Source: Sipunculus nudus (Eukaryota > Annelida > Sipuncula > Golfingiida > Sipunculidae). Taken from it: 64,000 bases of DNA. A program made the position numbers and the translations under genes. The stretch is taken from positions 54,761,886 through 54,825,885 of the forward strand of contig CM049322.1 of the NCBI GenBank assembly GCA_026874595.1. The letters run 5' to 3'. Numbering within the stretch: the stretch's first letter is position 1; the number at the start of each line of letters is the position of its first letter. Positions 5,957 through 53,358 of this stretch are shown piece by piece. Below the pieces are notes generated by a model, which had not been told where the DNA came from, did not search any database, and saw nothing but the letters and a program-made list of their open reading frames with translations.

Positions 5957-7095
5957 CTAGAAAAAATAAAATTTATAATTTTTGAAAATTTATATTCATC
6001 CATTAAGACCAATTCATTAAAAGAATACATTTAAATAGTGAGAAAGTCCCTTGATTTTATATTAAAATATCTAGAAAATCATATTGAGACAAACTTTTGT
6101 GTATTTTGCTAATTGATCACTTTGTCAGCTATAGCCGGTTGAAAATCTAGCTTTATGAATGTATTTATTTTTAAACAGGAGTTTCTATGGTAACAAACTA
6201 TTTGTATTCGTCATTCGGAGAAAAGCAGTCATCTGTTCAAAATGATTATTTCAATTCTCCAAACCAGTTCAATGCGTCTGTTCTACACTGTTTGACACTC
6301 AGAGCGGTCAGATGTTGAGAGTGCTCATAATCATATTTGTCTATAACCAGGAGAATTATAATTAAATAATTTTATATTTCTAAGAATTTCCCGCCCAGGA
6401 CGCTCTTTATTTAACCGTTCTACGATTAGCTTTGCGACCCAACAGACTTACTTGCGAGGCTGATGTAAGGTATGCTAACGATAGCTTTTGTGGATGTCAG
6501 TCAGCCCAAACTCATACGCCCAAATATAAGTTATATAATAAATAACATTTTTGAACATATCTGTGTAGAATCGTAAGTGCTCTTCTTCGTCCCCGAGCGT
6601 GGTGCTTTTTTTTGGCGAAGACCAGATCCGTGTACAGCTCATCAAGCTCGACTCTCATGATATCATCATCCCATTCCCACAACTCTATTTCACTGTATTC
6701 TCTTAATATAGTATTAGCGACTCTACGCTGCAGGTCTTTTGTAATAATGCCAACATTGCCTTAGGATAAAAAAGAACTTGCATTAGCTGATTTACCCAAT
6801 GTAGGGATTATTTTTAAACAATAGCTTCCAGAAAGAAATTTTATTTATGGGAAATGTTCGATTATTTATAGTCTCCCTATGCCATAGACTTTGGATTTAA
6901 CTCTTCTTTTTCTCAAGCTTTAATTACACATCCTCTGTTAAATGGGTTAATGATTTCAAGCTACATTCTGATACGTTTATTCGTGAGCTTAATAGTTAAA
7001 AAGTACACACGCTAATCTTTCAGATACAATCAAAACTATATGACTTCGCATTTGTAAACAAATACATAAAGCGCCTCTGTGGCACACATTCCTTC

Positions 7096-7366
7096 TGTGA
7101 CAGACGCATTTCCTCAACCACTCACACCCCCCACCCTCTCCTTCTTACACATCCATTACCATCTCCCTACATACACACGCTCTCTGACACACCCTTTCCC
7201 TCACACGAACCCTCTCACCAGGCACCAACACCCTCACACTCCCACAACCAGTCACTCCGAACACACTCTCACACTCCCACAACCTCTCAGTCACCCGTCA
7301 CCTCTCACTCACACCCTTTCACTCGCACCCCCTCTCAAACATACACCCTCTAACACACACCCTCTT
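7096..7366. repeat. CT/CA-rich low-complexity block (unit 1)
   Basis: About 270 bp of imperfect short repeats of ctctcacac / accctctcac type, almost free of G on the plus strand. On the transcribed (minus) strand this is a GT/GA-rich run with several G clusters. It lies in the intron between the two linker exons and recurs in units 2 and 3. Confidence 0.8.
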
Positions 7367-7759
7367 CAAAAGAATTGGAATTATATAGTTTTGTATAGTC
7401 AGCACGCACATACATATAATGGCTTTTCTTATGTATTTAAAGGAATATAGTTCTTTTCAAAACCAACAATTATTAAAGTGTATAAAAAAAATAAAACATT
7501 TATCATGAATAAGTGTCTTTCCATCAAAATGAAAAACCACCTCTGATAAATTGTAGAAAGTTGACTTAGGAAAAAATCACATTGTGCCAGACCAAGACCG
7601 AATAATAGTCCTCATATTATATAAGAGACTATTCAGAATGGCTAACCTCACAACACAAGGCATCAGACCTCGCAATATAATGGAGCCAGTGTATTTGAGA
7701 CAATGCCTGCAAAGCTGCTAACAATTGCCCAGTGCAAAAAATAGCTCCAAATATTAAAT

Positions 7760-8130
7760 ATGCTAAATGACCTTGAATATGAAAGTCAAGGTCACTGGTT
7801 TTCGAGCACATCACAGAACATGGTCAAGTCAATGTGTGTAGCAATTTTGAAGAAAAAATATGCAAGGCTTAAGAAGTTAGCTAAATCACCAAAAATTACA
7901 TACAAAAAGGCTATATAAATTTAAAAAAAATCTAATTCAAGGTCGACCAACAGTTGATGCGTTCGAGCAAGTCATAAGGCGATACATTTAACAATGTAAT
8001 AAGCAAATCAAATGAAAACTCTTGCCACTATCGCGCTAACGGGCGGGTAGGGTGATTTTTTTCCAGTATGAGCTGATCCATAAAAGCAAAGGTCAAGGTC
8101 AGACAATGAAGAAAAAAAAAAAAACGGTTG
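7760..8130. repeat. Intronic dispersed-repeat-like sequence (unit 1)
   Basis: Contains opposed copies of a tgaccttga / tcaaggtca word (7771-7794) and aaaggtcaaggtcag near 8089, ending in an A tract at 8110-8122 whose length differs among the three units (12, 10, about 13). This resembles an interspersed element with an A-rich end. No coding frame is convincing, and the family was not identified. Confidence 0.35.
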
Positions 8131-9724
8131 TCTATCTAAAGCAAGATTGCGAGATACAAGCCTCTAGGAAAAGCGGACGCGGACACGGAGCCGGTAACAA
8201 AAAAACCTATGGGGCGCTTAATTCAATCCGTTTTGAACATTGATGTACAATTTAAAAATAGGCCCTTGTCATATCAGGATGTGGAATTTCATTAAATAAA
8301 TTGAATACGTCCATGAATTATACATTGCTTTCCTCGCTCGATCGGTTACATACGAAGACTCCATACATAAAGTGTTAACAGTGTTGAATATAAGTAAAAA
8401 TCGTAATTCAAATCAGTGGAAACTGAAACATAGAGATAATAAAAGAGTCAGAGGGCACTCGTAATCTAGGCAACATACCTTTCTCTGTCAATTGAATCCT
8501 GACAGAATGAGCCATATCTGTTTCTAGATGTTCCATATGTCTTCCTCTTCTGTTGTAAAACTAGTTTTTTTTATATGTAATTAAACATAAACGGTTTGCA
8601 AAAACGCTATAGACATTTGCTACATAAAGCCCCTGGCTAGGAATCGACACTATTATTTATTACTGTATATTTCAGTGTTTCTTTCTCTTTATTTAATTAA
8701 AAGTTAAGGTTTAACTTTCACTTAAAAGAATAGCAAAAGTAATTTTTAAGTCTTGTTTTATAGCTTCTTTTTCGGCTGCAGATTTTAGTCAATCAATTTT
8801 ATGAATATTATGAGGGACTGAATATCATTTTCTACTCACGACTAATGGCTCTTTCCTACAACACATCATGCCAACTCGTTTTGTAACGCAGATTCCGATA
8901 ATGCCAGCAAGAAGTATTGTAAATCCACAAGACACAGCAATTAGAATAACTGCTATCGTCCACCCTCCTTATGAAAATATTTTCGTTCCAAGTTATTATA
9001 AGTTCGAAATAATAGATCATGTAATAAATAGAAAAGTGTTGTTAATAAACCAACGCTGAAAATATATTTTTTACCTGAACCATCATGGTAAATTGATGTC
9101 AGATTACTTTTTGTAGTCAGGTTGACTCTTATGGCATCACATATATAAGGCATTTTCTTTTGACAATCACTTGGCATGGAATTCCATGATGATGATTGCA
9201 CCGAAATAGAACCACATACGCCTGAATTCGGATGTTGACGTGGATCCCAGTAATCGTATATAATATCCTCTGAAATTTTAATAGAGTTACCTTTAAATTC
9301 CCACCCGTTAACTATCCATGCAAAATTCGATAGTAATATCGCAAAACGGGCATGTAGGTATGTTTATTAAAAAGGCCTGTACTGCTCTACTGCTTTGTAC
9401 TGAATGTTAACAGGAGAAATGTTGGAAATTAAACCATAATAACCTGGTGACCTCTCGTTGTCAACCCATTCCTCTCTTCTCAGACCAACCCAAAACCGAT
9501 GACAAGTCCACTCTTTCTTCGCCAGCACTTCCATTACGTCTCGATCTCTCACCAAAGCAAGTGTCTGGTTCCATTTTTGGCAGCGAGCCCTCGCCTCGTG
9601 CCATGTTCGTTGCTCACAATAATGCGCATAGCATATACCATTGTGACCAACACCAATGAGGGACAATATATCACGGGAACAATGGGAATCTGCAAACAAA
9701 CATATCTGTGACATTGGTCGAGTT

Positions 9725-13394: not shown

Positions 13395-16300
13395 TCACAC
13401 CTTCAGCCTCAGGTCTGGTAAGGTCTGTTTCAGCTGCGTTTTAATATTTTTTTGTAACAGGCTCACTCATGTTGTTATACATGAGATCTAACTCGTAAAG
13501 TCGTGACAGTTGTTGTGTCATGTTGAGTATCTGCTCTAATTCATCATCCAGGTGGTTTTCACTCACAATTAAGGTCCTGAGTGAGGGGCATGACTGGAGC
13601 TCGTCAGTCAGTTGAATGACGGACTGGGTGTCAGTAAGACCACAGCGTCTCATGCCGATTATGCTCAGGTGGAGGAGTGATGACAGCTGCCGAGACAACT
13701 GTACTACACTGTCACTACCAATGTTATTGTTGCTATGATTCAATACTTGCAGCTGAGACGTCATCGACAGTCGTGAGATACATTTGTTCCAGGCTTCATG
13801 TATCAGTATATATTGATTTGATGTATATGGTTTTATTTCATGCATGTCATATACATCACAGTCACCAAGCAGCAACTGTCTGATCTCAGGCAGGTTGACG
13901 AGCCTCTCGCCTAGCTGCTCCACACCTGCTGCATCCAGTGACAAGACTCCCATCTCCAGAACCTGCAGCCCGGGGGTGTACTGTAGGCCGTCCACTACAG
14001 CTACACCTTCACCACGTTCACCATAGGTGCATTTACATACACGTAATTCACAGAGCAGGGGAAGACGCTGTAACTGACGGCTTAACGTCTCAAACACAAC
14101 ACAGTCAGCTGTGTTTTTATTTGTATAACTTACACCTCGCCGTTTATGGGTAACTTGTGTTCCTTTGAGATCAAGCACAATGAGATTTGGTGTGTGGTGT
14201 AGGTTTGCCACAACACCTCCCACGGCATTATGTTTCTTACAATAAGGTACCCATAATTCTTTGAGCTCTGTAAATCTCCTCAATTGATTTCCTAGCTCTG
14301 TAAATTCAACCGACGTTACTTCGTTTCTGATAAGATCGAGTGAACGTAATCTTGCCGTGTAATGTCGGAGTCCCCTTATTACTGGTCTCACAGCATCCAC
14401 GACATCACACCTACACAGACGCAGTTCACGGAGTTCACTGAGATGCTGTAGCTGATTAACAAAAACCTGGTACCCAGTCTCATCAACACTGTTGCTCATG
14501 TCATTTAATTCCTTAAAAACAGCTTGTTTTGCATACTTTGCCTTTAACCCAGATATATCAAGAATATTAAGTTCCGGCACTAAATGTATTTTATCTACAA
14601 CGTGACGTACTGCATTCGTCTGATCAGACACACACAGTCGAAATACTCTAAGATTGGCAAGGTGTTTCAGCTGGTCACCAAGTATTGCAAACACCTCCGA
14701 GTCGGCCCTGTTACCAGAGAGATCTAGAGCTTGTAGTTGTGTTACGTGTTGTAGAGATCTCACAACCGGGATCAGCCCTCGTGGTTCATCACATTCACAC
14801 AGACGGAGCTCACGGAGCTTGGTGAGGCTCCTCATCCTGTCACCAAGAACCTGATACACATCTGACGTCACTTTATTACCAGTTGTCCTGCCCCTCACGT
14901 CTAGTGCCTCATACGGCTCAGGGTTAGAAATGTTTCCCGATATATCTAAAATTTCTATTCCAAATGTGTGCCTGAGAGCGGTTATGAAAGACTCAGTAGC
15001 ATTTTCGGTGTCACATTTGCATAAGTGAAGGGTTGTTAGATTTAAAAACCCCATTACTTGGTCCGCAATTTGTCTGCAAACCTCCGGGGATACCAAGAGA
15101 CGGCTCAGGTCCAAGACAGTGAGGTCACATGGTTTGTGTATAACATCAGTATGCTGGCCACTCAGTATATCAAAAATGACTCTGTATTTATTAAAATATG
15201 TTGATTTAGAAGTCAGAGCGGTGATACAGTTTGTCTGACACCATTCCAGGAGGTACTCTTTTCCAAAGAATGGACAATTAACTATTATTTGATTTACTTT
15301 TAAGTCCTGACGTCCTGCAGTTTCATTCAGTTTTCTCTGAATGGTTATATTCCAATCAGAACCACGTACCACGACATGTCCATCTTTGGATATTTTGCTG
15401 AACCATACTTTAATATCTCTCGGGATGTCATCAAAATCATACACACTCAATGTTTCTATTTTAACAGCTTGGTGTTGCTTTCTTTCTATTTCCATTTCAA
15501 GGTTGTATAAAAATCCAGTGTTTTGTTTATATATCGTGACTGCTTTCAGCTTCGTATTCTGCAAGTATTGAAGGTACCGCAGTTGTTCCACAGACGGCGC
15601 CCATATTCTGATCGTTTCAACTTGAGAACTGTCCATTGAAAAAAACGCTGAAGCACTTCAGAGGTATACAGATTATTGAATTCAATTTCTATTGTTTTTG
15701 GTAGAACAAAAGTTTCTGTGTTTATGTCAGATAAAAAGCCAGTTGAACGGCAGTATGTGTTTTGTCTCCTTCAGACCCTTCAATGATATCATGGATTATG
15801 CTTGTAATAATTTCTTTTCCTAATCCTTTGAGAAAAGTCAAGATCATCGTGGATTCCTTGAGTGCGTTTGGTGAATTGACAAAATAAAAGAATAGCTCTT
15901 GCCTAATTTTTGGATCACAGTTGACGATGAAATAAGCAGTCAGAAATTCCTGCAATGTTTTATGCTTTAAATATATTTTTTTTCTTGTATGTTTTCTTTC
16001 TTTATCATTCAGTCTACCACTGGCATTCAGTAAACCTAACGTCACTCAAGTCATTCAGAACAGATGTTGGAAAGCTTAGTTCTAATGTATCTCCCTTTAA
16101 ACCATCAACAGCGACCTTTCCGATTTCCATAATAAACTGGTGAAATATGTCAATTATTTTACCTTGGTCAGAACGATTGTCTTGAGAAACAAATTTTATT
16201 TCATATCTTCTGCACACATACTTTACAAAATCAAAATAAAATTCGGTGACAGAATTCGCGATCCTCTTTTGATCCCGCAAAAGAACACACATGAGTAACA

Positions 16301-16900
16301 GGACATCCGGGTAACAGCTAAATTCTTTTCTGTCCTTATTTTCGGCAATCTCAGTTCTTAGATTTTCACCATCATCTGAATTGTGGAAAAATCGGTCCGT
16401 GTTAGTTTTCACCCTTTTGTCAGAAAAACCTTTCAGAATGACATGGGTCTTTGGGAATTCCTTTGGTGATTTAAAATGTAGTGATGGACGATTGCGTGAG
16501 GTAATGACCAGGTTGGTTTCCTTCAGATGATTTCTTTTAATAATGTTTGTAATATCCATGGCTGTGTCTTCTCTGTACTCATCAAGACCCTCAAACAAAA
16601 AAAGAATATGTCGCTGATTGCTTTAATTATATTTACCATGCTCTCTTGGTTTCTTATATCTATATTTTGATGAAATGCTTCAGTTAGAGTTTCGTTTTGT
16701 CTGACATCCCTTAAGAAGATGGGGAGTACCAGCTGAAATTTCCCCAGATGTCTCTTAATATGTCTTGGTGTAAGAAAGGTTCTTCTCCACCAGCTGGCCA
16801 GAGTATACATCGCCCAGTCCACTAACAGACGTTTTGCTAATGTCGTTTTCCCTGTCCCAGCGGCTCCTTCTAGATAAACACTATGCTCCAATGTACTCTC
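13395..16900 (-). pseudogene. NACHT-LRR exon, dead copy 2
   Basis: Offset exactly 10944 from copy 1 and carrying the same indels: one base lost near 16624, 11 bases near 16039, six bases in frame near 15762, one base near 15737, one near 15644, and one T gained at 13446-13452. Only a few substitutions separate it from copy 1, such as Asp to Val in the first LRR block near 15178. The open remnants are the Walker A piece (16523-16891), 16014-16598, 15722-16045, and the 731-codon LRR piece (13441-15636). It cannot encode an intact NACHT ATPase. Confidence 0.9.
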
Positions 16901-17490
16901 CTAGAAAAAATAAAATTTATAATTTTTGAAAATTTATATTCATCCATTAAGACCAATTCATTAAAAGAATACATTTAAATAGTGAGAAAGTCCCTTGATT
17001 TTATATTAAAATATCTAGAAAATCATATTGAGACAAAATTTTGTGTATTTTGCTAATTGATCACTTTGTCAGCTATAGCCGGTTGAAAATCTAGCTTTAT
17101 GAATGTATTTATTTTTAAACAGGAGTTTCTATGGTAACAAACTATTTGTATTCGTCATTCGGAGAAAAGCAGTCATCTGTTCAAAATGATTATTTCAATT
17201 CTCCAAACCAGTTCAATGCGTCTGTTCTACACTGTTTGACACTCAGAGCGGTCAGATGTTGAGAGTGCTCATAATCATATTTGTCTATAACCAGGAGAAT
17301 TATAATTAAATAATTTTATATTTCTAAGAATTTCCCGCCCAGGACGCTCTTTATTTAACCGTTCTACGATTAGCTTTGCGACCCAACAGACTTACTTGCG
17401 AGGCTGATGTAAGGTATGCTAACGATAGCTTTTGTGGATGTCAGTCAGCCCAAACTCATACGCCCAAATATAAGTTATATAATAAATAAC

Positions 17491-20400
17491 ATTTTTGAAC
17501 ATATCTGTGTAGAATCGTAAGTGCTCTTCTTCGTCCCCGAGCGTGGTGCTTTTTTTTGGCGAAGACCAGATCCGTGTACAGCTCATCAAGCTCGACTCTC
17601 ATGATATCATCATCCCATTCCCACAACTCTATTTCACTGTATTCTCTTAATATAGTATTAGCGACTCTACGCTGCAGGTCTTTTGTAATAATGCCAACAT
17701 TGCCTTAGGATAAAAAAGAACTTGCATTAGCTGATTTACCCAATGTAGGGATTATTTTTAAACAATAGCTTCCAGAAAGAAATTTTATTTATGGGAAATG
17801 TTCGATTATTTATAGTCTCCCTATGCCATAGACTTTGGATTTAACTCTTCTTTTTCTCAAGCTTTAATTACACATCCTCTGTTAAATGGGTTAATGATTT
17901 CAAGCTACATTCTGATACGTTTATTCGTGAGCTTAATAGTTAAAAAGTACACACGCTAATCTTTCAGATACAATCAAAACTATATGACTTCGCATTTGTA
18001 AACAAATACATAAAGCGCCTCTGTGGCACACATTCCTTCTGTGACAGACGCATTTCCTCAACCACTCACACCCCCCACCCTCTCCTTCTTACACATCCAT
18101 TACCATCTCCCTACACACACACGCTCTCTGACACACCCTTTCCCTCACACGAACCCTCTCACCAGGCACCAACACCCTCACACTCCCACAACCAGTCACT
18201 CCGAACACACTCTCACACTCCCACAACCTCTCAGTCACCCGTCACCTCTCACTCACACCCTTTCACTCGCACCCCCTCTCAAACATACACCCTCTAACAC
18301 ACACCCTCTTCAAAAGAATTGGAATTATATAGTTTTGTATAGTCAGCACGCACATACATATAATGGCTTTTCTTATGTATTTAAAGGAATATAGTTCTTT
18401 TCAAAACCAACAATTATTAAAGTGTATAAAAAAAATAAAACATTTATCATGAATAAGTGTCTTTCCATCAAAATGAAAAACCACCTCTGATAAATTGTAG
18501 AAAGTTGACTTAGGAAAAAATCACATTGTGCCAGACCAAGACCGAATAATAGTCCTCATATTATATAAAAGACTATTCAGAATGGCTAACCTCACAACAC
18601 AAGGCATCAGACCTCGCAATATAATGGAGCCAGTGTATTTGAGACAATGCCTGCAAAGCTGCTAACAATTGCCCAGTGCAAAAAATAGCTCCAAATATTA
18701 AATATGCTAAATGACCTTGAATATGAAAGTCAAGGTCACTGGTTTTCGAGCACATCACAGAACATGGTCAAGTCAATGTGTGTAGCAATTTTGAAGAAAA
18801 AATATGCAAGGCTTAAGAAGTTAGCTAAATCACCAAAAATTACATACAAAAAGGCTATATAAATTTTAAAAAAATCTAATTCAAGGTCGACCAACAGTTG
18901 ATGCGTTCGAGCAAGTCATAAGGCGATACATTTAACAATGTAATAAGCAAATCAAATGAAAACTCTTGCCACTATCGCGCTAACGGGCGAGTAGGGTGAT
19001 TTTTTTCCAGTATGAGCTGATCCATAAAAGCAAAGGTCAAGGTCAGACAATGAAGAAAAAAAAAACGGTTGTCTATCTAAAGCAAGATTGCGAGATACAA
19101 GCCTCTAGGAAAAGCGGACGCGGACACGGAGCCGGTAACAAAAAAACCTATGGGGCGCTTAATTCAATCCGTTTTGAACATTGATGTACAATTTAAAGAT
19201 AGGCCCTTGTCATATCAGGATGTGGAATTTCATTAAATAAATTGAATACGTCCATGAATTATACATTGCTTTCCTCGCTCGATCGGTTACATACGAAGAC
19301 TCCATACATAAAGTGTTAACAGTGTTGAATATAAGTAAAAATCGTAATTCAAATCAGTGGAAACTGAAACATAGAGATAATAAAAGAGTCAGAGGGCACT
19401 CGTAATCTAGGCAACATACCTTTCTCTGTCAATTGAATCCTGACAGAATGAGCCATATCTGTTTCTAGATGTTCCATATGTCTTCCTCTTCTGTTGTAAA
19501 ACTAGTTTTTTTTATATGTAATTAAACATAAACGGTTTGCAAAAACGCTATAGACATTTGCTACATAAAGCCCCTGGCTAGGAATCGACACTATTATTTA
19601 TTACTGTATATTTCAGTGTTTCTTTCTCTTTATTTAATTAAAAGTTAAGGTTTAACTTTCACTTAAAAGAATAGCAAAAGTAATTTTTAAGTCTTGTTTT
19701 ATAGCTTCTTTTTCGGCTGCAGATTTTAGTCAATCAATTTTATGAATATTATGAGGGACTGAATATCATTTTCTACTCACGACTAATGGCTCTTTCCTAC
19801 AACACATCATGCCAACTCGTTTTGTAACGCAGATTCCGATAATGCCAGCAAGAAGTATTGTAAATCCACAAGACACAGCAATTAGAATAACTGCTATCGT
19901 CCACCCTCCTTATGAAAATATTTTCGTTCCAAGTTATTATAAGTTCGAAATAATAGATCATGTAATAAATAGAAAAGTGTTGTTAATAAACCAACGCTGA
20001 AAATATATTTTTTACCTGAACCATCATGGTAAATTGATGTCAGATTACTTTTTGTAGTCAGGTTGACTCTTATGGCATCACATATATAAGGCATTTTCTT
20101 TTGACAATCACTTGGCATGGAATTCCATGATGATGATTGCACCGAAATAGAACCACATACGCCTGAATTCGGATGTTGACGTGGATCCCAGTAATCGTAT
20201 ATAATATCCTCTGAAATTTTAATAGAGTTACCTTTAAATTCCCACCCGTTAACTATCCATGCAAAATTCGATAGTAATATCGCAAAACGGGCATGTAGGT
20301 ATGTTTATTAAAAAGGCCTGTACTGCTCTACTGCTTTGTACTGAATGTTAACAGGAGAAATGTTGGAAATTAAACCATAATAACCTGGTGACCTCTCGTT

Positions 20401-20630
20401 GTCAACCCATTCCTCTCTTCTCAGACCAACCCAAAACCGATGACAAGTCCACTCTTTCTTCGCCAGCACTTCCATTACGTCTCGATCTCTCACCAAAGCA
20501 AGTGTCTGGTTCCATTTTTGGCAGCGAGCCCTCGCCTCGTGCCATGTTCGTTGCTCACAATAATGCGCATAGCATATACCATTGTGACCAACACCAATGA
20601 GGGACAATATATCACGGGAACAATGGGAAT
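17491..20630 (-). pseudogene. Lectin-TM-linker part of dead copy 2
   Basis: Exon counterparts: lectin exons 20385-20630 and 20016-20210, transmembrane exon 19781-19908, linker exon one 19420-19501, linker exon two 17491-17703. Linker exon two has the same two-base loss in its T run (17550-17557) and the same AAT-GTTATT donor context as copy 1. The lectin and transmembrane exons remain open, but the copy begins 35 bp from the array junction and lacks upstream exons. Transcription, if any, would have to start from LINE or intron sequence. Confidence 0.85.
18040..18310. repeat. CT/CA-rich low-complexity block (unit 2)
   Basis: Same block as in unit 1, with one visible substitution (ctacacacac for ctacatacac) near 18112. 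It lies in the intron between the linker exons of dead copy 2. Confidence 0.8.
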
Positions 20631-25554: not shown

Positions 25555-28500
25555 TCACACCTTCAGCCTCAGGTCTGGTAAGGTCTGTTTCAGCTGCGTT
25601 TTAATATTTTTTGTAACAGGCTCACTCATGTTGTTATACATGAGATCTAACTCGTAAAGTCGTGACAGTTGTTGTGTCATGTTGAGTATCTGCTCTAATT
25701 CATCATCCAGGTGGTTTTCACTCACAATTAAGGTCCTGAGTGAGGGGCATGACTGGAGCTCGTCAGTCAGTTGAATGACGGACTGGGTGTCAGTAAGACC
25801 ACAGCGTCTCATGCCGATTATGCTCAGGTGGAGGAGTGATGACAGCTGCCGAGACAACTGTACTACACTGTCACTACCAATGTTATTGTTGCTAAGATTC
25901 AATACTTGCAGCTGAGACGTCATCGACAGTCGTGAGATACATTTGTTCCAGGCTTCATGTATCAGTATATATTGATTTGATGTATATGGTTTTATTTCAT
26001 GCATGTCATATACATCACAGTCACCAAGCAGCAACTGTCTGATCTCAGGCAGGTTGACGAGCCTCTCGCCTAGCTGCTCCACACCTGCTGCATCCAGTGA
26101 CAAGACTCCCATCTCCAGAACCTGCAGCCCGGGGGTGTACTGTAGGCCGTCCACTACAGCTACACCTTCACCACGTTCACCATAGGTGCATTTACATACA
26201 CGTAATTCACAGAGCAGGGGAAGACGCTGTAACTGACGGCTTAACGTCTCAAACACAACACAGTCAGCTGTGTTTTTATTTGTATAACTTACACCTCGCC
26301 GTTTATGGGTAACTTGTGTTCCTTTGAGATCAAGCACAATGAGATTTGGTGTGTGGTGTAGGTTTGCCACAACACCTCCCACGGCATTATGTTTCTTACA
26401 ATAAGGTACCCATAATTCTTTGAGCTCTGTAAATCTCCTCAATTGATTTCCTAGCTCTGTAAATTCAACCGACGTTACTTCGTTTCTGATAAGATCGAGT
26501 GAACGTAATCTTGCCGTGTAATGTCGGAGTCCCCTTATTACTGGTCTCACAGCATCCACGACATCACACCTACACAGACGCAGTTCACGGAGTTCACTGA
26601 GATGCTGTAGCTGATTAACAAAAACCTGGTACACAGTCTCATCGACACTGTTGCTCATGTCATTTAATTCCTTAAAAACAGCTTGTTTTGCATACTTTGC
26701 CTTTAACCCAGATATATCAAGAATATTAAGTTCCGGCACTAAATGTATTTTATCTACAACGTGACGTACTGCATTCGTCTGATCAGACACACACAGTCGA
26801 AATACTTTAAGATTGGCAAGGTGTTTCAGCTGGTCACCAAGTATTGCAAACACCTCCGAGTCGGCCCTGTTACCAGAGAGATCTAGAGCTTGTAGTTGTG
26901 TTACGTGTTGTAGAGATCTCACAACCGGGATCAGCCCTCGTGGTTCATCACATTCACACAGACGGAGCTCACGGAGCTTGGTGAGGCTCCTCATCCTGGC
27001 ACCAAGAACCTGATACACATCTGACGTCACTTTATTACCAGTTGTCCTGCCCCTCACGTCTAGTACCTCATACGGCTCAGGGTTAGAAATGTTTCCCGAT
27101 ATATCTAAAATTTCTATTCCAAATGTGTGCCTGAGAGCGGTTATGAAAGACTCAGTAGCATTTTCGGTGTCACATTTGCATAAGTGAAGGGTTGTTAGAT
27201 TTAAAAACCCCATTACTTGTTCCGCAATTTGTCTGCAAACCTCCGGGGATACCAAGAGACGGCTCAGGTCCAAGACAGTGAGGTCACATGGTTTGTGTAT
27301 AACATCAGTATGCTGGCCACTCAGTATATCAAAAATGTCTCTGTATTTATTATAATATGTTGACTTAGAAGTCAGAGCGGTGATACAGTTTGTCTGACAC
27401 CATTCCAGGAGGTCCTCTTTTCCAAAGAATGGACAATTAACTACTATTTGATTTACTTTTAAGTCCTGACGTCCTGCAGTTTCATTCAGTTTTCTCTGAA
27501 TGGTTATATTCCAATCAGAACCACGTACCACGACATGTCCATCTTTGGATATTTTGCTGAACCATACTTTATTATCTCTCGGGATGTCATCAAAATCATA
27601 CACACTCAATGTTTCTATTTTAACAGCTTGGTGTTGCTTTCTTTCTATTTCCATTTCAAGGTTGTCTAAAAATCCAGTGTTTTGTTTATATATCGTGACT
27701 GCTTTCAGCTTGGTATTCTGCAAGTATTGAAGGTACCGCAGTTGTTCCACAGACGGCGCCCATATTCTGATCGTTTCAACTTGAGAACTGTCCATTGAAA
27801 AATAACGCTGAAGCACTTCAGAGGTATACAGATTATTGAATTCAATTTCTATTGTTTTTGGTAGAACAAAAGTTTCTGTGTTGATGTCAGATAAAAACGC
27901 CAGTTGAACGGCAGTATGTGTTTTTGTTTTGTCTCCTTCAGACCCTTCAATGATATCATGGATTATGCTTGTAATAATTTCTTTTCCTAATCCTTTGAGA
28001 AAAGTCAAGATCATCGTGGATTCCTTGAGTGCGTTTGGTGAATTGACAAAATAAAAGAATAGCTCTTGCCTAATTTTTGGATCACAGTTGACGATGAAAT
28101 AAGCAGTCAGAAATTCCTGCAATGTTTTATGCTGAAAATATATTTTTTTTCTTGTATGTTTTCTTTCTTTATCATTCAGTCTACCACTGGCATTCAGTAA
28201 ACCTAACTTTTTGGCCACGTCACTCAAGTCATTCAGAACAGATGTTGGAAAGCTTAGTTCTAATGTATCTCCCTTTAAACCATCAACAGCGACCTTTCCG
28301 ATTTCCATAATATACTGGTGAAATATGTCAATTATTTTACCTTGGTCAGAACGATTGTCTGGAGAAACAAATTTTATTTCATATCTTCTGCACACATACT
28401 TTACAAAATCAAAATAAAATTCGGTGACAGAATTCGCGATCCTCTTTTGATCCCGCCAAAGAACACACATGAGTAACAGGACAGCCGGGTAACAGCTTAA

Positions 28501-29079
28501 TTCTTTTCTGTCCTTATTTTCGGCAATCTCAGTTCTTAGATTTTCACCATCATCTGAATTGTGGAAAAATCGGTCCGTGTAAGTTTTCACCCCTTTGTCA
28601 GAAAAACCTTTCAGAATGACATGGGTCTTTGGGAATTCCTTTGGTGATTTAAAATGTAGTGATGGACGATTGCGTGAGGTAATGACCAGGTTGGTTTCCT
28701 TCAGATGATTTCTTTTAATAATGTTTGTAATATCCATGGCTGTGTCTTCTCTGTACTCATCAAGACCCTCAAACAAAAAAAGAATATGTCGCTGATTGCT
28801 TTCAATTATATTTACCATGCTCTCTTGGTTTCTTATATCTATATTTTGATGAAATGCCTCAGTTAGAGTTTCGTTTTGTCTGACATCCCTTAAGAAGATG
28901 GGGAGTACCAGCTGAAATTTCCCCAGATGTCTCTTAATATGTCTTGGTGTAAGAAAGGTTCTTCTCCACCAGCTGGCCAGAGTATACATCGCCCAGTCCA
29001 CTAACAGACGTTTTGCTAATGTCGTTTTCCCTGTCCCAGCGGCTCCTTCTAGATAAACACTATGCTCCAATGTACTCTC
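25555..29079 (-). CDS. Intact NACHT-LRR exon (last exon of the receptor gene)
   Basis: One 3525-bp exon after acceptor TTTTTTCTAG; it opens ESTLEHSVYLEG. There is no ATG at its head (the residue before EHSV is TTG, Leu), so it must be spliced to upstream exons. Counting from that TTG as residue 1: Walker A GAAGTGKTT at 9-17; Walker B ILFLFEGLDEY at 96-106, with Glu where most NACHT proteins have the first Asp; sensor ITSRNRP at 130-136; winged-helix-like LSCYPAVLLLMCVLW at 191-205; the NLR helix motif HKTLQEFLTAYFI at 314-326. From about residue 598 there are ribonuclease-inhibitor-type repeats (LTVLDLSRL, LQALDLSGNRAD, LRSLDLIRNEV, LQVLNLSNNNI), often with Cys at the strand end (LHLCKC, LRLCECD). 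The stop is TGA. Six lesions in copies 1 and 2 are absent here. Confidence 0.93.
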   Translation of the reverse strand, partial: ESTLEHSVYLEGAAGTGKTTLAKRLLVDWAMYTLASWWRRTFLTPRHIKRHLGKFQLVLPIFLRDVRQNETLTEAFHQNIDIRNQESMVNIIESNQRHILFLFEGLDEYREDTAMDITNIIKRNHLKETNLVITSRNRPSLHFKSPKEFPKTHVILKGFSDKGVKTYTDRFFHNSDDGENLRTEIAENKDRKELSCYPAVLLLMCVLWRDQKRIANSVTEFYFDFVKYVCRRYEIKFVSPDNRSDQGKIIDIFHQYIMEIGKVAVDGLKGDTLELSFPTSVLNDLSDVAKKLGLLNASGRLNDKERKHTRKKIYFQHKTLQEFLTAYFIVNCDPKIRQELFFYFVNSPNALKESTMILTFLKGLGKEIITSIIHDIIEGSEGDKTKTHTAVQLAFLSDINTETFVLPKTIEIEFNNLYTSEVLQRYFSMDSSQVETIRIWAPSVEQLRYLQYLQNTKLKAVTIYKQNTGFLDNLEMEIERKQHQAVKIETLSVYDFDDIPRDNKVWFSKISKDGHVVVRGSDWNITIQRKLNETAGRQDLKVNQIVVNCPFFGKEDLLEWCQTNCITALTSKSTYYNKYRDIFDILSGQHTDVIHKPCDLTVLDLSRLLVSPEVCRQIAEQVMGFLNLTTLHLCKCDTENATESFITALRHTFGIEILDISGNISNPEPYEVLDVRGRTTGNKVTSDVYQVLGARMRSLTKLRELRLCECDEPRGLIPVVRSLQHVTQLQALDLSGNRADSEVFAILGDQLKHLANLKVFRLCVSDQTNAVRHVVDKIHLVPELNILDISGLKAKYAKQAVFKELNDMSNSVDETVYQVFVNQLQHLSELRELRLCRCDVVDAVRPVIRGLRHYTARLRSLDLIRNEVTSVEFTELGNQLRRFTELKELWVPYCKKHNAVGGVVANLHHTPNLIVLDLKGTQVTHKRRGVSYTNKNTADCVVFETLSRQLQRLPLLCELRVCKCTYGERGEGVAVVDGLQYTPGLQVLEMGVLSLDAAGVEQLGERLVNLPEIRQLLLGDCDVYDMHEIKPYTSNQYILIHEAWNKCISRLSMTSQLQVLNLSNNNIGSDSVVQLSRQLSSLLHLSIIGMRRCGLTDTQSVIQLTDELQSCPSLRTLIVSENHLDDELEQILNMTQQLSRLYELDLMYNNMSEPVTKNIKTQLKQTLPDLRLKV

Positions 29080-32000
29080 CTAGAAAAAATAAAATTTATA
29101 ATTTTTGAAAATTTATATTCATCCATTAAGACCAATTCATTAAAAGAATACATTTAAATAGTGAGAAAGTCCCTTGATTTTATATTAAAATATCTAGAAA
29201 ATCATATTGAGACAAAATTTTGTGTATTTTGCTAATTGATCACTTTGTCAGTTATAGCCGGTTGAAAATCTAGCTTTATGAATGTATTTATTTTTAAACA
29301 GGAGTTTCTATGGTAACAAACTATTTGTATTCGTCATTCGGAGAAAGGCAGTCATCTGTTCAAAATGATTATTTCAATTCTCCAAACCAGTTCAATGCGT
29401 CTGTTCTACACTGTTTGACACTCAGAGCGGTCAGATGTTGAGAGTGCTCATAATCATATTTGTCTATAACCAGGAGAATTATAATTAAATAATTTTATAT
29501 TTCTAAGAATTTCCCGCCCAGGACGCTCTTTATTTAATCGTTCTACGATTAGCTTTGCGACCCAACAGACTTACTTGCGAGGCTGATGTAAGGTATGATA
29601 ACGAAAGCTTTTGTGGATGTCAGTCAGCCCAAACTCATTTTAAAATATAAGTTATATAATAAATAACCTTTTTGAACATATCTGTGTAGAATCGTAAGTG
29701 CTCTTCTTCGTCCCCGAGCGTGGTGCTTTTTTTTTTGGCGAATACCAGATCCGTGTACAGCTCATCAAGCTCGACTCTCATGATATCATCATCCCATTCC
29801 CACAACTCTATTTCACTGTATTCTCTTAATATAGTATTAGCGACTCTACGCTGCAGGTCTTTTGTAATAATGCCAACATTGCCTTAGGATAAAAAAGAAC
29901 TTGCATTAGCTGATTTACCCAATGTAGGGATTATTTTTAAACAATAGCTTCCAGAAAGAAATTTTATTTATGGGAAATGTTCGATTATTTATAGTCTCCC
30001 TATGCCGTAGACTTTGGATTTAACTCTTCTTTTTCTCAAGCTTTAATTACACATCCTCTGTTAAATGGGTTAATGATTTCAAGCTACATTCTGATACGTT
30101 TATTCGTGAGCTTAATAGTTAAAAAGTACACAAGCTAATCTTTCTGATACAATCAAAACTATATGACTTGCATTTGTAAACAAATACATAAAGCGCCTCT
30201 GTGGCACACATTCCTTCTGTGACAGACGCATTTCCTCAACCACTCACACCCGCCACCCTCTCCTTTTTACACATCCATTACCATCTCCCTACACACACAC
30301 GCTCTCTGACACACCCTTTCCCTCACACGAACCCTCTCACCAGGCACGAACACCCTCACACTCCCACAACCAGTCACTCCGAACACACTCTCACACTCCC
30401 ACAACCTCTCAGTCACCCGTCACCTCTCACTCACACCCTTTCACTCGCACCCCCTCTCAAACATACACCCTCTAACACACACCCTCTTCAAAAGAATTGG
30501 AATTATATAGTTTTGTATAGTCAGCACGCACATACAAATAATGGCTTTTCTTATGTATTTAAAGGAATATAGTTCTTTTCAAAACCAACAATTATTAAAG
30601 TGTATAAAAAAAATAAAAACATTTATCATGAATAAGTGTCTTTCCATCAAAATGAAAAACCACCTCTGATAAATTGTAGAAAGTTGACTTAGGAAAAAAT
30701 CACATTGTGCCAGACCAAGACCCAATAATAGTCCTGATATTATATAAAAGTCTATTCAGAATGGCTAACCTCACAACACAAGGCATCAGACCTCGCAATA
30801 TAATGGAGCCAGTGTATTTGAGACAATGCCTGCAAAGCTGCTAACAATTGCCCAGTGCATAAATAGCTCCAAATATTAAATATGCTAAATGACCTTGAAT
30901 ATGAAAGTCAAGGTCACTGGTTTTCGAGCACATCACAGAACATGGTCAAGTCAATGTGTGTAGCAATTTTGAAGAAAAAATATGCAAGGCTTAAGAAGTT
31001 AGCTAAATCACCAAAAATTACATACACAAAAAGGCTATATAAATTTTAAAAAAATCTAATTCAAGGTCGACCAACAGTTGATGCGTTCGAGCAAGTCATA
31101 AGGCGATACATTTAACAATGTAATAAGCAAATCAAATGAAAACTCTTGCCACTATCGCGCTAACGGGCGAGTAGGGTGATTTTTTTCCAGTATGAGCTGA
31201 TCCATAAAAGCAAAGGTCAAGGTCAGACAATGAAGAAAAAAAAAAAAAGGTTGTCTATCTAAAGCAAGATTGCGAGATACAAGCCTCTAGGAAAAGCGGA
31301 CGCGGACACGGAGCCGGTAACAAAAAAACCTATGGGGCGCTTAATTCAATCCGTTTTGAACATTGATGTACAATTTAAAGATAGGCCCTTGTCATATCAG
31401 GATGTGGAATTTCATTAAATAAATTGAATACGTCCATGAATTATACATTGCTTTCCTCGCTCGATCGGTTACATACGAAGACTCCATACATAAAGTGTTA
31501 ACAGTGTTGAATATAAGTAAAAATCGTAATTCAAATAAGTGGAAACTGAAACATAGAGATAATAAAAGAGTCAGAGGGCACTGGTAATCTAGGCAACATA
31601 CCTTTCTCTGTCAATTGAATCCTGACAGAATGAGCCATATCTGTTTCTAGATGTTCCATATGTCTTCCTCTTCTGTTGTAAAACTAGTTTTTTTTTATAT
31701 GTAATTAAACATAAACGGTTTGCAAAAACGCTATAGACATTTGCTACATAAAGCCCCTGGCTAGGAATCGACACTATTATTTATTACTGTATATTTCAGT
31801 GTTTCTTTCTCTTTATTTAATTAAAAGTTAAGGTTTAACTTTCACTTAAAAGAATAGCAAAAGTAATTTTTAAGTCTCGTTTTATAGCTTCTTTTTCGGC
31901 TGCAGATTTTAGTCAATCAATTTTATGAATATTATGAGGGACTGAATATCGTTTTCTACTCACGACTAATGGCTCTTTCCTACAACACATCATGCCAACT

Positions 32001-35000
32001 CGTTTTGTAACGCAGATTCCGATAATGCCAGCAAGAAGTATTGTAAATCCACAAGACACAGCAATTAGAATAACTGCTATCGTCCACCCTCCTTATGAAA
32101 ATATTTTCGTTCAAAGTTATTATAAGTTCGAAATAATAGATCATGTAATAAATAGAAAAGTGTTGTTAATAAACCAACGCTGAAAATATATTTTTTACCT
32201 GAACCATCATGGTAAATTGATGTCAGATTACTTTTTGTAGTCAGGTTGACTCTAATGGCATCACATATATAAGGCATTTTCTTTTGACAATCACTTGGCA
32301 TGAAATTCCATGATGATGATTGCACCCAAATAGAACCACATACGCCTGAATTCGGATGTTGACGTGGATCCCAGTAATCGTATATAATATCCTCTGAAAT
32401 TTTAATAGAGTTACCTTTAAATTCCCACCCGTTAACTATCCATGCGAAATTCGATAGTAATATCGCAAAACGGGCATGTAGGTATGTTTATTAAAAAGGC
32501 CTGTACTGCTCTACTGCTTTGTACTGAATGTTAACAGGAGAAATGTTGGAAATTAAACCATAATAACCTGGTGACCTCTCGTTGTCAACCCATTCCTCTC
32601 TTCTCAGACCAACCCAAAACCGATGACAAGTCCACTCTTTCTTCGCCAGCACTTCCATTACGTCTCGGTCTCTCACCAAAGCAAGTGTCTGGTTCCATTT
32701 TCGGCAGCGAGCCCTCGCCTCGTGCCATGTTCGTTGCTCACAATAATGCGCATAGCATATACCATTGTGACCAACACCAATGTGGGACAATATATCACGG
32801 GAACAATGGGAATCTGCAAACAAACATATCTGTGACATTGGTCGAGTTAGTTTCCGTACACGTATGTAGAGGACATTAAGTACATGACAAGGAAAAAAAT
32901 ATGGATTCCTCTTACAAATACAATACAAAGAAGCTATTCAAACACATATAAATATCCATTATTAGACAATAGCCAAATAAATGCTGTGAGAGAAGACCAA
33001 GTTTAACACAGAGCTTTTCATGCGCATCGGATACATTGAAATCAATTAATATATTTTAGATGGGTCCATTTTTTAAATTTAATTCATAATTTTGCTTTAT
33101 TAATAATACCACTGGACCAGTGACCTAAGTCGAAGTAAAACAAAAATAATAGGACTCTATAACCCTAGTACAAATTTATTCTACGTATATTCCTAGTCCT
33201 GTACAGTGTTAGAGGTGATGATACTTTGTACTTTCCAAATATTTTACTGTGCCATTTTTCGGTATCAATATGAGAACACCTACAGAAAATGGATTTGATT
33301 AAAATTATAAAGAAATGTTTATTTCCACCATTTACTGAATAACTCTTTCTTATATGCAATTATTTTCACTTGTCACTTTTTGCATATTATCTATTCTGTC
33401 ACTATAGATACTTTGGTGAAATCCCTTAATATTTTTTTTCACTCATTGCAAGACCAGTTCAGGTGATGTACATAATCGTATACTTATTTTAGATGCACAT
33501 TAGACAAGTAAACGATCCCTGTGACTATTTATGTTTGTCGATTGAACACGAAAGGTGAAGCGAAAGATGCGGTTACGACTCCGATAACGGCAACTGTCTA
33601 TGCTACCTAATTTAAGGCCGACATACATGTTGCGACCCGACTCAGCTCAACAGGTGAAAAGCTGTTTAGTTGAGTCGCGTCGTAATGTGTATGCGTGAAA
33701 ACACACGACTCATCCGGAACCCAGTCGGCGTCAGGTTTTGGTTTATGGCAGTGTCAGAAAAAATCGTGTTCAGTTGAGCCCGTCACGTCGTTCAGAAGCA
33801 CAGTCAGCAAGCAATCACGCTACGTCTCTGGCCACATGAATATCTCAGTCATTTGATCGTCTGGGCCAAAATCATATGGTGTAGTGAAAGACATGATTAA
33901 ATTACATTAGCACTGTGTGCGCATAATATATGATTAGATCTGTATAGCCAGTGTCCCCTACGTAATGTGCATGTTCTCGAAGGTAGAATATATATTATGT
34001 TCATCACAAAACATCGAATAATATTGTTAAGATTTAAGTGATATTAAACGATTTTTTTTCAGCTATGGGATTGGGAGAATTGAAAGGGCGATATATAGAT
34101 ATATACATGTATACTAATAAATAAAATGACATGCATCAATGACTAACTTATTGGGGCGAACTCCGGTTAGATAATCTGTTGGTAAGTAGTTATGGGGAGT
34201 TTCGTGAAAATCCATCCATGCCCTGGTAAGTTTGCGCGGAATTAGAGTTAACGGACGGACGGACGGTGAGTATTCCCATAATACTGTCGTCATATGACAG
34301 GCGTAAAAATAACCTCTAAGGCAAGTCTTTGTAAAATATGAATCGATTCAAATTTCCATGGAAAGAAATTTTCTCAAGAGTTGAGAATGACGTCATTTGA
34401 CATAAGTCAGTGCACACTTGCTAGCATTTACTGCAAATAAGCAAACATTTTACTTACCCTTGAACGAACAGATACTGCCAACGGTTCTGTCGGAACAATG
34501 CCCGGTTTCGACACGGTTCGTTTTCTGATTGAACCAAGCGCAACCATCTTTATGCGGCACCAGGTGGTTAAACTCTTGGGTATAGGTGAAACAGTTTTAC
34601 TTTTGAATACATTCAGTAATCATTTAAATATACGAAAACATTATTTTTTTTCTGGATGAAAATTTACATTTACTTTTTCATACTTTATTATCATTGGCTA
34701 CATACTGAAATAGCTTTATCAGTTAAGGATGTATATTCCTATAATATATGATAAGAGAGATAAATTTCTATTAAGGAAGCAACCTGATATAAAATATCGT
34801 TTTGTAATTGAGAAGTTTATCATAATGTACCTGGTTTTGTACCGTCAGTCCACTCCCAGCTTGACATCATCTCCAATCTGACATTTATCCAAGTGGAATT
34901 GATCCACTTTTCCTCCAGTATTTTCCTCAGATGACTTGCTTTAGGATCGGTCGGTGTCTCAGGCAATCTGGCGCCTTTCTTGTCACAGCAGTGCTCGGCC

Positions 35001-35049
35001 TGCCACATATTTCCAGGGCGAGCGCATCGAGATCCACTCGTCGAGGGAC
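25555..35049 (-). CDS. Membrane-anchored C-type-lectin/NACHT/LRR receptor (intact gene, eight exons)
   Basis: Exons in transcript order: 35049-34831, 34574-34458, 32813-32568, 32393-32199, 32091-31964, 31683-31602, 29882-29668, 29079-25555. Intron phases are 1,1,1,1,0,1,0, and the exon lengths sum to one frame of 1575 codons plus stop. Domain order: lectin-like domain one (112 codons), lectin-like domain two (147), a transmembrane helix, a cytosolic linker of about 100 residues, the NACHT ATPase, and a long LRR tract. The protein would sense outside ligands with its lectin part and place an NLR-type ATPase under the membrane; this role is inference. No CARD, DEATH or PYD domain is visible. 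The first exon is not certain: the phase-1 acceptor at 35049 needs a signal-peptide exon, and the best candidate is 44228-44294. Alternatively the gene is split in two, with the lectin part separate, but the phase match argues against that. Confidence 0.7.
29668..29882 (-). CDS. Linker exon two of the receptor (pre-NACHT segment)
   Basis: Acceptor ATCCTAAG, phase 1 in, 215 bp, phase 0 out at AAG-GTTATT (a weak donor). It encodes a charged segment with WEWDDDIMRVELDELYTDLV followed by KKKSTT and FYTDMFKK. A 'D(D/E)LYT.L' stretch followed by a basic run and a 'DMF' motif just before Walker A is typical of invertebrate NACHT proteins as I know them, and it supports direct joining to the next exon (ESTLEHS). 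In units 1 and 2 this exon has lost two T's and is out of frame. Confidence 0.75.
29883..31601. other. Intron between linker exons (unit 3), with repeats
   Basis: About 1.7 kb with no open frame of interest. It holds a CT/CA-rich block (30218-30488) and dispersed-repeat-like sequence with tgaccttga/tcaaggtca words and an A tract near 31236-31248. The same layout is present in units 1 and 2. Confidence 0.6.
30218..30488. repeat. CT/CA-rich low-complexity block (unit 3)
   Basis: Same as the blocks at 7096 and 18040, with a few substitutions. On the transcript strand it is G-rich with clusters such as GAGAGGGGGTG. Confidence 0.8.
31602..31683 (-). CDS. Linker exon one of the receptor
   Basis: 82 bp, phase 0 in and phase 1 out (AAAG-GTATGT, a good donor). 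It reads FYNRRGRHMEHLETDMAHSV then RIQLTEK. The acceptor chosen is ACTAG before TTTTACAACAG, because only this gives a frame that continues both to the transmembrane exon (phase 0) and to linker exon two (phase 1). The other possible acceptor, CAG eleven bases later, would run into a stop in linker exon two. The pyrimidine tract upstream is poor, so this border is the weakest in the model. Confidence 0.6.
31964..32091 (-). CDS. Transmembrane exon of the receptor
   Basis: 128 bp, acceptor TTTTCATAAG, phase 1 in, strong donor GTC-GTGAGT, phase 0 out. It encodes GWTIAVILIAVSCGFTILL and then AGIIGICV, a single hydrophobic helix of about 24 residues, followed by KR and a short basic, Cys-containing stretch (GMMCCRKEP). 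Basic residues directly after the helix fit the positive-inside rule with the lectin part outside and the NACHT part in the cytosol. The Cys pair is a possible palmitoylation site (inference). Identical exons exist in both dead copies. Confidence 0.85.
32199..32393 (-). CDS. Second half of lectin-like domain two
   Basis: 195 bp, acceptor AAATTTCAG, phase 1 both sides, donor TTCAG-GTAAAA. It encodes the end of a C-type lectin fold: YDYWDPRQHPNSGVCGS, then SSSWNFMPSDCQKKMPYICD, with the two usual late Cys residues. The usual EPN/QPD calcium-sugar motif is replaced by QHPN, and there is no WND triplet, so classical calcium-dependent sugar binding is doubtful. A short stalk with two N-glycosylation sequons (NLT twice) precedes the membrane helix. 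In units 1 and 2 Trp in SIWV reads Ser (TGG to TCG). Confidence 0.85.
32568..32813 (-). CDS. First half of lectin-like domain two
   Basis: 246 bp with a strong acceptor (TTTGTTTGCAG), phase 1 in and out, donor CCAG-GTTATT. It encodes GVGHNGICYAHYCEQRTWHE and ARARCRKWNQTLALV, then FWVGLRREEWVDNERSPG, matching the C-type lectin pattern of an early Cys, W..A...C, L..V, and W.GL...W.D. The exon split falls at the same place as in lectin domain one (after the W-D-G-like loop), which supports the two being duplicates. Reading past the donor gives only a short tail, so splicing is required. Confidence 0.87.
33622..33693. repeat. Imperfect inverted repeat (hairpin)
   Basis: Arms 33622-33653 and 33662-33693 are complementary at 26 of 32 positions with an eight-base loop (gtgaaaag). 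The core contains cgactca / tgagtcg. It may be a small foldback element or MITE remnant; no target-site duplication was recognised. Confidence 0.7.
34150..34310. repeat. Dispersed repeat with ACGG tandem
   Basis: Contains gagtttcgtgaaaatccatc, then an ACGG tandem (34253-34275), then a tail with opposed tgtcgtcat / atgaca words ending gcgtaaaaat. I recall this layout from dispersed repeats of many marine invertebrate genomes. The family was not determined. Confidence 0.45.
34458..34574 (-). CDS. Second half of lectin-like domain one
   Basis: 117 bp, acceptor ACCCAAG, phase 1 both sides, strong donor AAGG-GTAAGT. It encodes EFNHLVPHKDGCAWFNQK and ETGHCSDRTVGSICSF. The Cys pattern fits the end of a C-type lectin fold, again without EPN or WND motifs. 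Splicing to 32813 gives KDSHCSRD in frame, linking the two lectin domains. Confidence 0.78.
34831..35049 (-). CDS. First half of lectin-like domain one
   Basis: 219 bp, acceptor ATATCAAAG after a ten-T run, phase 1 in and out, donor CCAG-GTACAT. It encodes SGSRCARPGNMWQAEHCC, KKGARLPE, then WINSTWINVR and SSWEWTDGTKPG. The W.WTDG loop is the classical C-type lectin signature. This exon has no counterpart in units 1 and 2, so only the parental locus has two lectin domains. An upstream exon ending in phase 1 is needed. Confidence 0.82.
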
Positions 35050-44227: not shown

Positions 44228-44294
44228 CTTGGACAGCGACCACAAGGAAGTAGAATAACGCACACAAGAAGACACCTCCATCGGGTGGAAACAT
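44228..44294 (-). CDS. Signal-peptide first exon (candidate start of the lectin-NACHT receptor)
   Basis: ATG at 44294; the product starts MFPPDGG followed by the hydrophobic run VFLCALFYFLVVAV and VQ, a typical secretory signal of 22 residues. The exon ends at a strong donor (CCAAG-GTAGGT) in phase 1, exactly the phase required by the acceptor at 35049. Joined directly, the receptor would be 1597 residues with a 9.2-kb first intron. A TATA-like box lies 93 bp upstream. Alternatively it starts another gene ending near 38908. Copy B has the same exon with a stop codon. Confidence 0.55.
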
Positions 44295-44386
44295 ATTTCC
44301 CGCTATTGTAAGTCACACCTATAGTTCAAATAAAGTTAATCTCGAAACCCGATGACACTTATCCCTACACACGTGTTCCGCCACTG

Positions 44387-44394
44387 TATTTATA
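44387..44394 (-). promoter_or_regulatory. TATA-like box upstream of signal exon A
   Basis: TATAAATA on the minus strand, 93 bp before the ATG, with an E-box-like cacgtg a further 22 bp towards the gene (44370-44375). The spacing would leave a 5' UTR of about 60 bases. Conserved in copy B. Confidence 0.35.
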
Positions 44395-45020: not shown

Positions 45021-45022
<2 letters not shown>

Positions 45023-45076
<54 letters not shown>

Positions 45077-45148
45077 TTTTACTGTAGTAACCTCTGGATT
45101 GAGTGGCAGTGTTCATAAATCTGAGCACGTGCTGAGCAAGGGTAAGGT

Positions 45149-45211
<63 letters not shown>
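45023..45211. repeat. Two (TA)n microsatellites, copy A
   Basis: TA runs at 45023-45074 and 45149-45211 flank a 74-bp unique piece (tcgttttactgtagtaacctc...). Run lengths differ from copy B. Confidence 0.95.
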
Positions 45212-53291: not shown

Positions 53292-53358
53292 CTTGGACAG
53301 CGACCACAAGGAAGTAGAATTACGCACACAAGAAGACACCTCCATCGGGTGGAGACAT
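53292..53358 (-). pseudogene. Signal-peptide exon, copy B, with stop codon
   Basis: Same exon as 44228-44294 with ATG at 53358 (MSPPDGGVFLCA), but codon 13 is TAA where copy A has TTA (Leu). The donor CCAAG-GTAGGT is intact. The change removes the hydrophobic core, so copy B cannot start a secreted or membrane protein from this ATG. Confidence 0.6.

Follow-up and report, generated by a model that had tools for sequence, protein, structure and literature searches.

The locus examined here raises the question of whether a lectin receptor and a NOD-like receptor (NLR) can be one and the same protein. In the textbook view, lectin receptors sit at the cell surface, NLRs reside in the cytosol, and the two are joined via separate adaptors. 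The window that we analysed (C17:54761886-54825885 of the Sipunculus nudus genome, 64,000 nucleotides; all positions below are counted within it) contains on its minus strand what is most probably a single nine-exon gene (25555-44294) for a type I membrane protein of 1597 aa. Its predicted order is a signal peptide, two C-type lectin-like domains (CTLDs) outside the cell, one transmembrane helix, a short basic, cysteine-containing juxtamembrane tail encoded by its own exon, a linker in the FISNA position, and a NACHT ATPase and leucine-rich repeats (LRRs) in the cytosol. The initial annotation of this locus had proposed one gene joining two CTLDs, a transmembrane helix, NACHT and LRRs. That much stands, through the signal-peptide exon and an exon order that recurs in ten modelled paralogues. 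The gene architecture and the family are well supported by sequence; a place at the cell surface and signalling by NACHT, and with them the function, are what we infer from it.

Gene Structure

The eight minus-strand exons of the initial annotation were borne out: all seven introns are GT-AG, with phases 1, 1, 1, 1, 0, 1 and 0, and the joined exons form a stop-free frame of 1574 codons plus a stop. The start of the gene had been misplaced. The exon beginning at 35049 has an AG acceptor in phase 1 and is internal, and the exon for the signal peptide had been missed. The fourth exon of that annotation also had to be corrected to 32393-32199, since the frame requires a start at 32393.

A scan for exons of phase 1 with the pattern ATG-hydrophobic-GT (limit score 4.3) returned a sole candidate at or above the limit on both strands of the window (128 kb). 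It has 22 codons with a hydrophobic core and the donor AAG/GTAGGT. In-frame stops lie upstream of its ATG at 44294, and 92 nt separate this ATG from the TATA-box-like sequence TATAAATA. The same scan on both strands of twenty 10-kb loci (400 kb) yielded one further candidate, near paralogue L031, which is likewise 67 nt long and of phase 1 and lies upstream of the first L031 lectin exon. Our first scans had returned only the L031 candidate among phase-1 exons; in the window they had extended to 43000 and 41000, short of 44294-44228. An all-against-all peptide comparison of the upstream regions gave nothing convincing for a conserved 5' exon. The signal-peptide exon is part of a tandem duplication of about 9 kb (42701-50393 and 51786-59169, 95-97% identical).

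Coding-potential scoring, trained on long open reading frames that included exon 9, preferred the claimed frame in eight of eight exons; because six of the eight score near zero or negative in absolute terms, we do not take this scoring as proof.

Table 1. Features of the gene and of its surroundings, by position in the window.
Feature	Position	Strand	Basis or remark
Exon 1: ATG and signal peptide MFPPDGGVFLCALFYFLVVAVQ, 67 nt, ends in phase 1	44228..44294	-	signal-peptide exon scan
Exon 2: CTLD1, first half	34831..35049	-	frame; Lectin_C match
Exon 3: CTLD1, second half	34458..34574	-	frame; Lectin_C match
Exon 4: CTLD2, first half	32568..32813	-	frame; Lectin_C E 6.1e-17 (400-aa front)
Exon 5: CTLD2, second half, and membrane-proximal stalk	32199..32393	-	frame; Lectin_C
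Exon 6: predicted transmembrane helix, aa 285-309, then basic stretch TKRVGMMCCRK	31964..32091	-	frame; 10/10 modelled paralogues
Exon 7: basic juxtamembrane segment, phase 0 to 1	31602..31683	-	frame; counterparts in 10 paralogues
Exon 8: pre-NACHT linker (FISNA-like position)	29668..29882	-	frame, paralogues
Exon 9: NACHT, winged-helix/HD region, LRRs, 1174 aa, stop	25555..29079	-	frame, Pfam, PDB matches
NACHT domain, residues 8-174 of exon 9	28558..29058	-	PF05729 E 2e-17
Stretch between outer Pfam LRR matches	25819..27006	-	LRR_14 residues 692-780; LRR_4 residues 1056-1087
TATA-box-like sequence	44387..44394	-	read from sequence, consensus match only
Second copy of signal-peptide exon, stop inside	53292..53358	-	exon scan, array comparison
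Broken tandem copy restricted to exons 4-9, with gaps in exons 8 and 9	2451..9689	-	no signal peptide, no CTLD1
Second broken tandem copy, likewise restricted to exons 4-9 and with gaps in exons 8 and 9, 10.94-kb unit	13395..20630	-	array comparison

Domains of the Predicted Protein

The domain searches that the initial annotation had suggested as a check matched Lectin_C, NACHT and LRR in Pfam. The front of 400 aa holds two Lectin_C stretches, the signature of C-type lectin receptors, and the CTLD1 piece by itself (138 aa, ending just past exon 3) matches Lectin_C with an E value of 9.1e-9. The Pfam scan of the same front, at E values up to 10, contained no CARD, PYD, death or HEPN domain; where classical NLRs carry an N-terminal CARD, PYD or death effector, the front here consists of two CTLDs and a transmembrane segment.

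The helix, TIAVILIAVSCGFTILLAGIIGICV, is followed by positive charges on the NACHT side. Basic residues flank the cytosolic side of membrane helices (the positive-inside rule), and this charge bias therefore places the NACHT side inside the cell. The signal peptide, the transmembrane exon and the charge bias together predict that the protein is anchored in the membrane. Both broken copies in the window carry an identical transmembrane exon.

As in other members of the NLR family, NACHT is combined with C-terminal LRRs, here within one exon, and its Walker A (GAAGTGKTT) and Walker B (FEGLDE) motifs are intact. Among the LRR matches in Pfam, LRR_4 lies above its cut-off and LRR_14 and LRR_1 below theirs. 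The nearest solved chains for exon 9 are NLRC4 (2.1e-6) and NLRP3 (6.2e-6). We take the stretch FQHKTLQEFLTAYF to resemble the winged-helix motif of NLRs, and the linker of exon 8 presumably occupies the position that FISNA has in other NLRs; a match to FISNA itself is weak (E 0.048) and was obtained only in a piece of paralogue L030.

Paralogues of the Gene

Searches of the genome (1.43 Gb in 153 contigs) returned at least 115 matches with the front of the window gene and at least 114 with the front of L030. From these we assembled 68 relatives of the CTLD2 exon: 47 matches outside the array from the first search and 21 further ones from the second. Dropped from the window-front set were rows of other exons, four array rows of CTLD2 (with that of the window gene) and three long rows (q40-287) resembling a separate intronless lectin family; dropped from the L030-front set were rows overlapping the window-front set, array rows and rows of other exons.

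We compared these exons with at least 155 places with NACHT. Among the matches listed, 23 of the 68 relatives are followed on their own strand by a NACHT no more than 10 kb away, and each of the three controls (same-strand upstream, opposite-strand downstream, opposite-strand upstream) gives 0 of 68. Widening the distance to 15 kb raises the count to 26 against 1, 0 and 0, on at least 11 chromosomes, the single control case being a neighbour on C13; within 30 kb it is 34 against 4, 0 and 1. By these matches, paralogues of the gene are spread over at least 11 chromosomes.

Twenty 10-kb stretches (including L029-L034, L040-L045, L047 and L048) were inspected more closely. In eight of them (L030-L034, L040, L047 and L048) the lectin exons are followed, on one strand, by the linker and then NACHT. 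L041 and L042 have lectin exons and linker in order with NACHT beyond the stretch, the nearest listed NACHT lying about 25 kb from the linker in L041 and 6 kb in L042. L029 is a further broken array copy, and the nine other stretches hold part of the set within 10 kb, as in L043-L045 with linker and NACHT and no lectin exon. Exons E2 and E4 have no match in L047, nor does E1 in L042; the L040 model lacks E1, the sole match to which lies 4 kb further upstream. In all ten modelled paralogues the lectin, transmembrane and linker exons share one strand and one order, and every anchored exon has splice sites of the expected phase, these phases having been imposed in the modelling.

The transmembrane exon was searched for in the 11 lectin-to-linker introns of the window gene and the ten paralogues (18,877 bp). 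With the splice-score sum set to at least 1, every modelled paralogue (ten of ten) yields a hydrophobic phase 1-to-0 exon; no other phase pair exceeds 3 of 11, and on the antisense strand each of the nine pairs gives 0 of 11. At a sum of at least 3 the count is 8 versus 3, and at a sum of at least 5 it is 6 of 11 versus at most 2. Each of the ten paralogues also accommodates a basic juxtamembrane exon of phase 0 to 1, a short exon placed without a control run; for L032 and L041 a candidate other than the top-scoring one was taken. As for divergence, the close pair L041 and L042 has a nonsynonymous divergence (dN) of 0.063 and a synonymous divergence (dS) of 0.164 over exons E2-E7; for L030 and L032 the values upstream of Walker A are 0.278 and 1.05.

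A genome-wide search with Pfam Lectin_C was dominated by other lectins and unusable for co-localisation. Its matches include dozens of near-equal score that lie in 359-382-aa open frames and are spread over many chromosomes, at times paired about 1.4 kb apart (C7:2723460 and C7:2724894; C9:29181206 and C9:29182623); they look like a mobile, intronless family of CTLD genes. Between 20.0 and 42.1 Mb on C9 lie more than 20 places with NACHT, many of which have an open frame of some 650 aa, an expansion apart from that on C17. In L044, an exon-like stretch upstream of a close NACHT relative (2571-2715) appeared CARD-like by eye and might be a canonical front on this type of NACHT; it has no Pfam or PDB match, and we do not claim it as such.

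Weighing the Single-Gene Model

Several findings weigh against a single gene with this architecture. On a generic splice matrix the acceptor of the exon starting at 31683 scores -12.9, those at 35049, 34574, 32393 and 32091 score -2.6 to -3.3, and the donors at 32568 and 29668 score 0.1 and -0.7. The window's own transmembrane exon falls, because of its weak acceptor, below the threshold passed by all ten paralogues, and exon 7, whose acceptor is poor, is outside the five best-scoring candidates in its intron. The splice thresholds for the transmembrane exon were varied after a first look, and at the loosest one (a sum of at least -1) phase 1 to 0 reaches 10 of 11 against 6 of 11 for the phase 1 to 1 pair. 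The paralogue models were picked to be stop-free and in phase, so that their open frames are not independent proof. The weak joints in the window are backed by the paralogues more than by their own splice sites.

The signal-peptide exon lies 9.2 kb upstream and was identified by pattern instead of homology. Of ten further upstream stretches, each 0.6-4.4 kb long, that of L031 alone exceeds the limit; the candidate in L047 is slightly under it (4.25), and the remaining eight stretches have weaker candidates or none. Among the matches listed, 42 of 68 CTLD exons have no NACHT in the 15 kb that follow; some of these exons may come from genes for lectins alone and others may lie upstream of an unlisted NACHT. 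A dN/dS of about 0.4 is moderate, and dS, at least 1.9 in comparisons with the window gene, is saturated in two of four of these. The canonical calcium and sugar motif of C-type lectins is EPN or QPD plus WND. By eye, neither part was seen in CTLD2 of the window gene and some paralogue models, where HPNSG and SWNFMPSDC were read, which are not conserved among the window and paralogue models; protein or non-canonical ligands are thus possible.

One alternative is compatible with the single gene: the full-length membrane NLR might be accompanied by shorter products. Skipping of exons 6 and 7 (32091-31602) would remove the helix, and a stop after exon 7 would leave a plain lectin receptor. The two exons together measure 210 nt and run from phase 1 to phase 1, so that the frame is kept if both are skipped, and exons 2 to 5 are all of phase 1-1. 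The presence of the transmembrane exon in every one of the modelled paralogues speaks against such skipping, and we consider these products unlikely.

A second explanation is that this family member is decaying and without function, like its neighbours in the array. The three other array copies are truncated and frameshifted; the third of them (L029), left of the window, retains exons 4-9 only and its NACHT frame is split. The second copy of the signal-peptide exon is broken as well, and several splice sites of the gene itself are weak. However, the copy at 25555-44294 has kept an open frame of 1597 aa, a signal peptide, CTLD1 and intact NACHT motifs, which makes decay improbable.

Each array unit also has an L1 ORF1-like fragment downstream of its gene copy. 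The fragment at 12623-12970 on the minus strand, the one copy scanned, matches PF02994 barely at the cut-off, and further copies lie at 1679-2026 and 23564-23917.

That the locus comprises a gene for a CTLD membrane receptor and a separate one for a cytosolic NLR, adjacent head to tail and duplicated together, would agree with the CTLD exons lacking a nearby NACHT and with the NACHT exons of L043-L045, near which no CTLD and no transmembrane exon were found in the 4.4, 4.7 and 2.7 kb visible upstream (weak negative controls); it is nevertheless very improbable, because exon 7 of the window gene is stop-free and ends in a phase-matching donor, its counterpart can be placed in the paralogues, the three introns from the transmembrane to the NACHT exon (379, 140 and 158 nt in L031; 242, 139 and 126 nt in L047) leave little room for a gene end and a promoter, an NLR starting at the first Met within exons 8-9 (aa 386, inside the conserved linker) would lose the first half of that linker, and the order of CTLD and NACHT holds across the chromosomes of the family.

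Evolution of the Family

In a tree of the NACHT domain (19 rows; L035, L037, L003 and L040 were removed beforehand and L036 yielded no row), the genes with CTLDs and a transmembrane exon are scattered over several places. A single clade of the eight such rows is rejected (p-AU 4.6e-6), a weak test because most fronts of the comparison rows (L001-L008) are unread and two comparison rows, L001 and L038, themselves have upstream lectin exons. The scatter fits several losses of an old front, repeated swapping, or fronts that are as yet unseen, and the phase 1-1 lectin exons would make swapping easy.

Tentatively, and with the balance of probability slightly against it, we propose a two-sided receptor family in which lectin-like domains would read the outside and LRRs the inside, both steering one NACHT fixed at the membrane. 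Such a family might have arisen by repeated exchange of a phase 1-1 cassette of lectin and transmembrane exons before different NACHT lineages, and would provide a modular repertoire of surface NLRs without an adaptor death domain.

Possible Function

Under the single-gene model, the lectin-like domains would bind a microbial or self ligand outside the cell. Clustering by the ligand, or a signal through the helix, would gather the NACHT modules, which might then oligomerise at the membrane in an ATP-dependent manner, as the intact Walker motifs and the presumed winged-helix motif suggest. Since no CARD, PYD or death domain was detected, the output would probably be that the NACHT platform recruits partners, for example for cytoskeletal uptake by analogy with the sea cucumber receptor AjNLRC4. 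The LRRs would keep NACHT in a closed state and may provide a second recognition face inside the cell. Gene structure, domains and family conservation are the parts of this scheme that we observed.

A genome-wide family of such fusions, if real, would shortcut the route from lectin through adaptor to NLR, and would make it possible to test directly whether a signal from outside the cell can set off NACHT oligomerisation. It would further illustrate how receptors diversify in animals without antibodies, by swapping front exons of one phase class.

Comparison with Known Systems

Vertebrate NLRC4 and NLRP3, which are cytosolic and have a CARD or PYD in front, share the layout of NACHT and LRRs with the gene described here. 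The statement in the initial annotation that known NLR proteins are cytosolic was too sweeping, as membrane NLRs have been reported in sea cucumber, anthozoans and sponges.

In the open-access literature searched (text only, without database annotations, and for several papers represented by excerpts), we found no protein that joins lectin, transmembrane, NACHT and LRR parts. The texts of two bivalve lectin papers contain neither "NACHT" nor "P-loop" nor "NTPase" (PMC10140915, PMC12842671). A ctenophore paper reports unique architectures of NACHT and CTLD genes, and its available text names no single protein with both (PMC11797021); the available parts of papers on Aplysia (PMC9334734) and placozoans (PMC6321704) describe no lectin-transmembrane-NACHT-LRR protein. 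Pearl oyster has a large NACHT family, enriched on one scaffold and in tandem arrays; unlike the fronts found here, those reported there are death or DZIP3-like HEPN domains, and "lectin" has no occurrence in the text available (PMC9646362).

Among the membrane NLRs, those of anthozoans have three to five N-terminal transmembrane domains and are predicted to be membrane-bound; they differ in having several clustered helices, and no lectin ectodomain is described in the accessible text (PMC5094078). Sponge NLRs with transmembrane domains are reported from Dysidea avara and, as cited in the same paper, Amphimedon queenslandica, with no CTLD front described in the portion available (PMC12909245). 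AjNLR-new of the sea cucumber Apostichopus japonicus shares NACHT, a transmembrane segment and an ectodomain-type module with our gene; its reported topology is the reverse, with NACHT outside and immunoglobulin (Ig) domains inside, as far as the excerpt goes (PMC13133943).

A close counterpart is AjNLRC4 from the same sea cucumber, with extracellular Ig domains, a transmembrane region and an intracellular NACHT, for which microbe binding via the Ig domains, oligomerisation, actin engagement and phagocytosis are reported (PMC8699970). The gene described here resembles AjNLRC4 in the order of ectodomain, membrane segment and intracellular NACHT without a CARD, its own topology being predicted from charge bias, and differs in having CTLDs instead of Ig domains, LRRs where AjNLRC4 has none, and one helix where two are reported. 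Membrane NLRs are already known, and the predicted lectin-fronted, LRR-bearing form adds a further variant to those reported.

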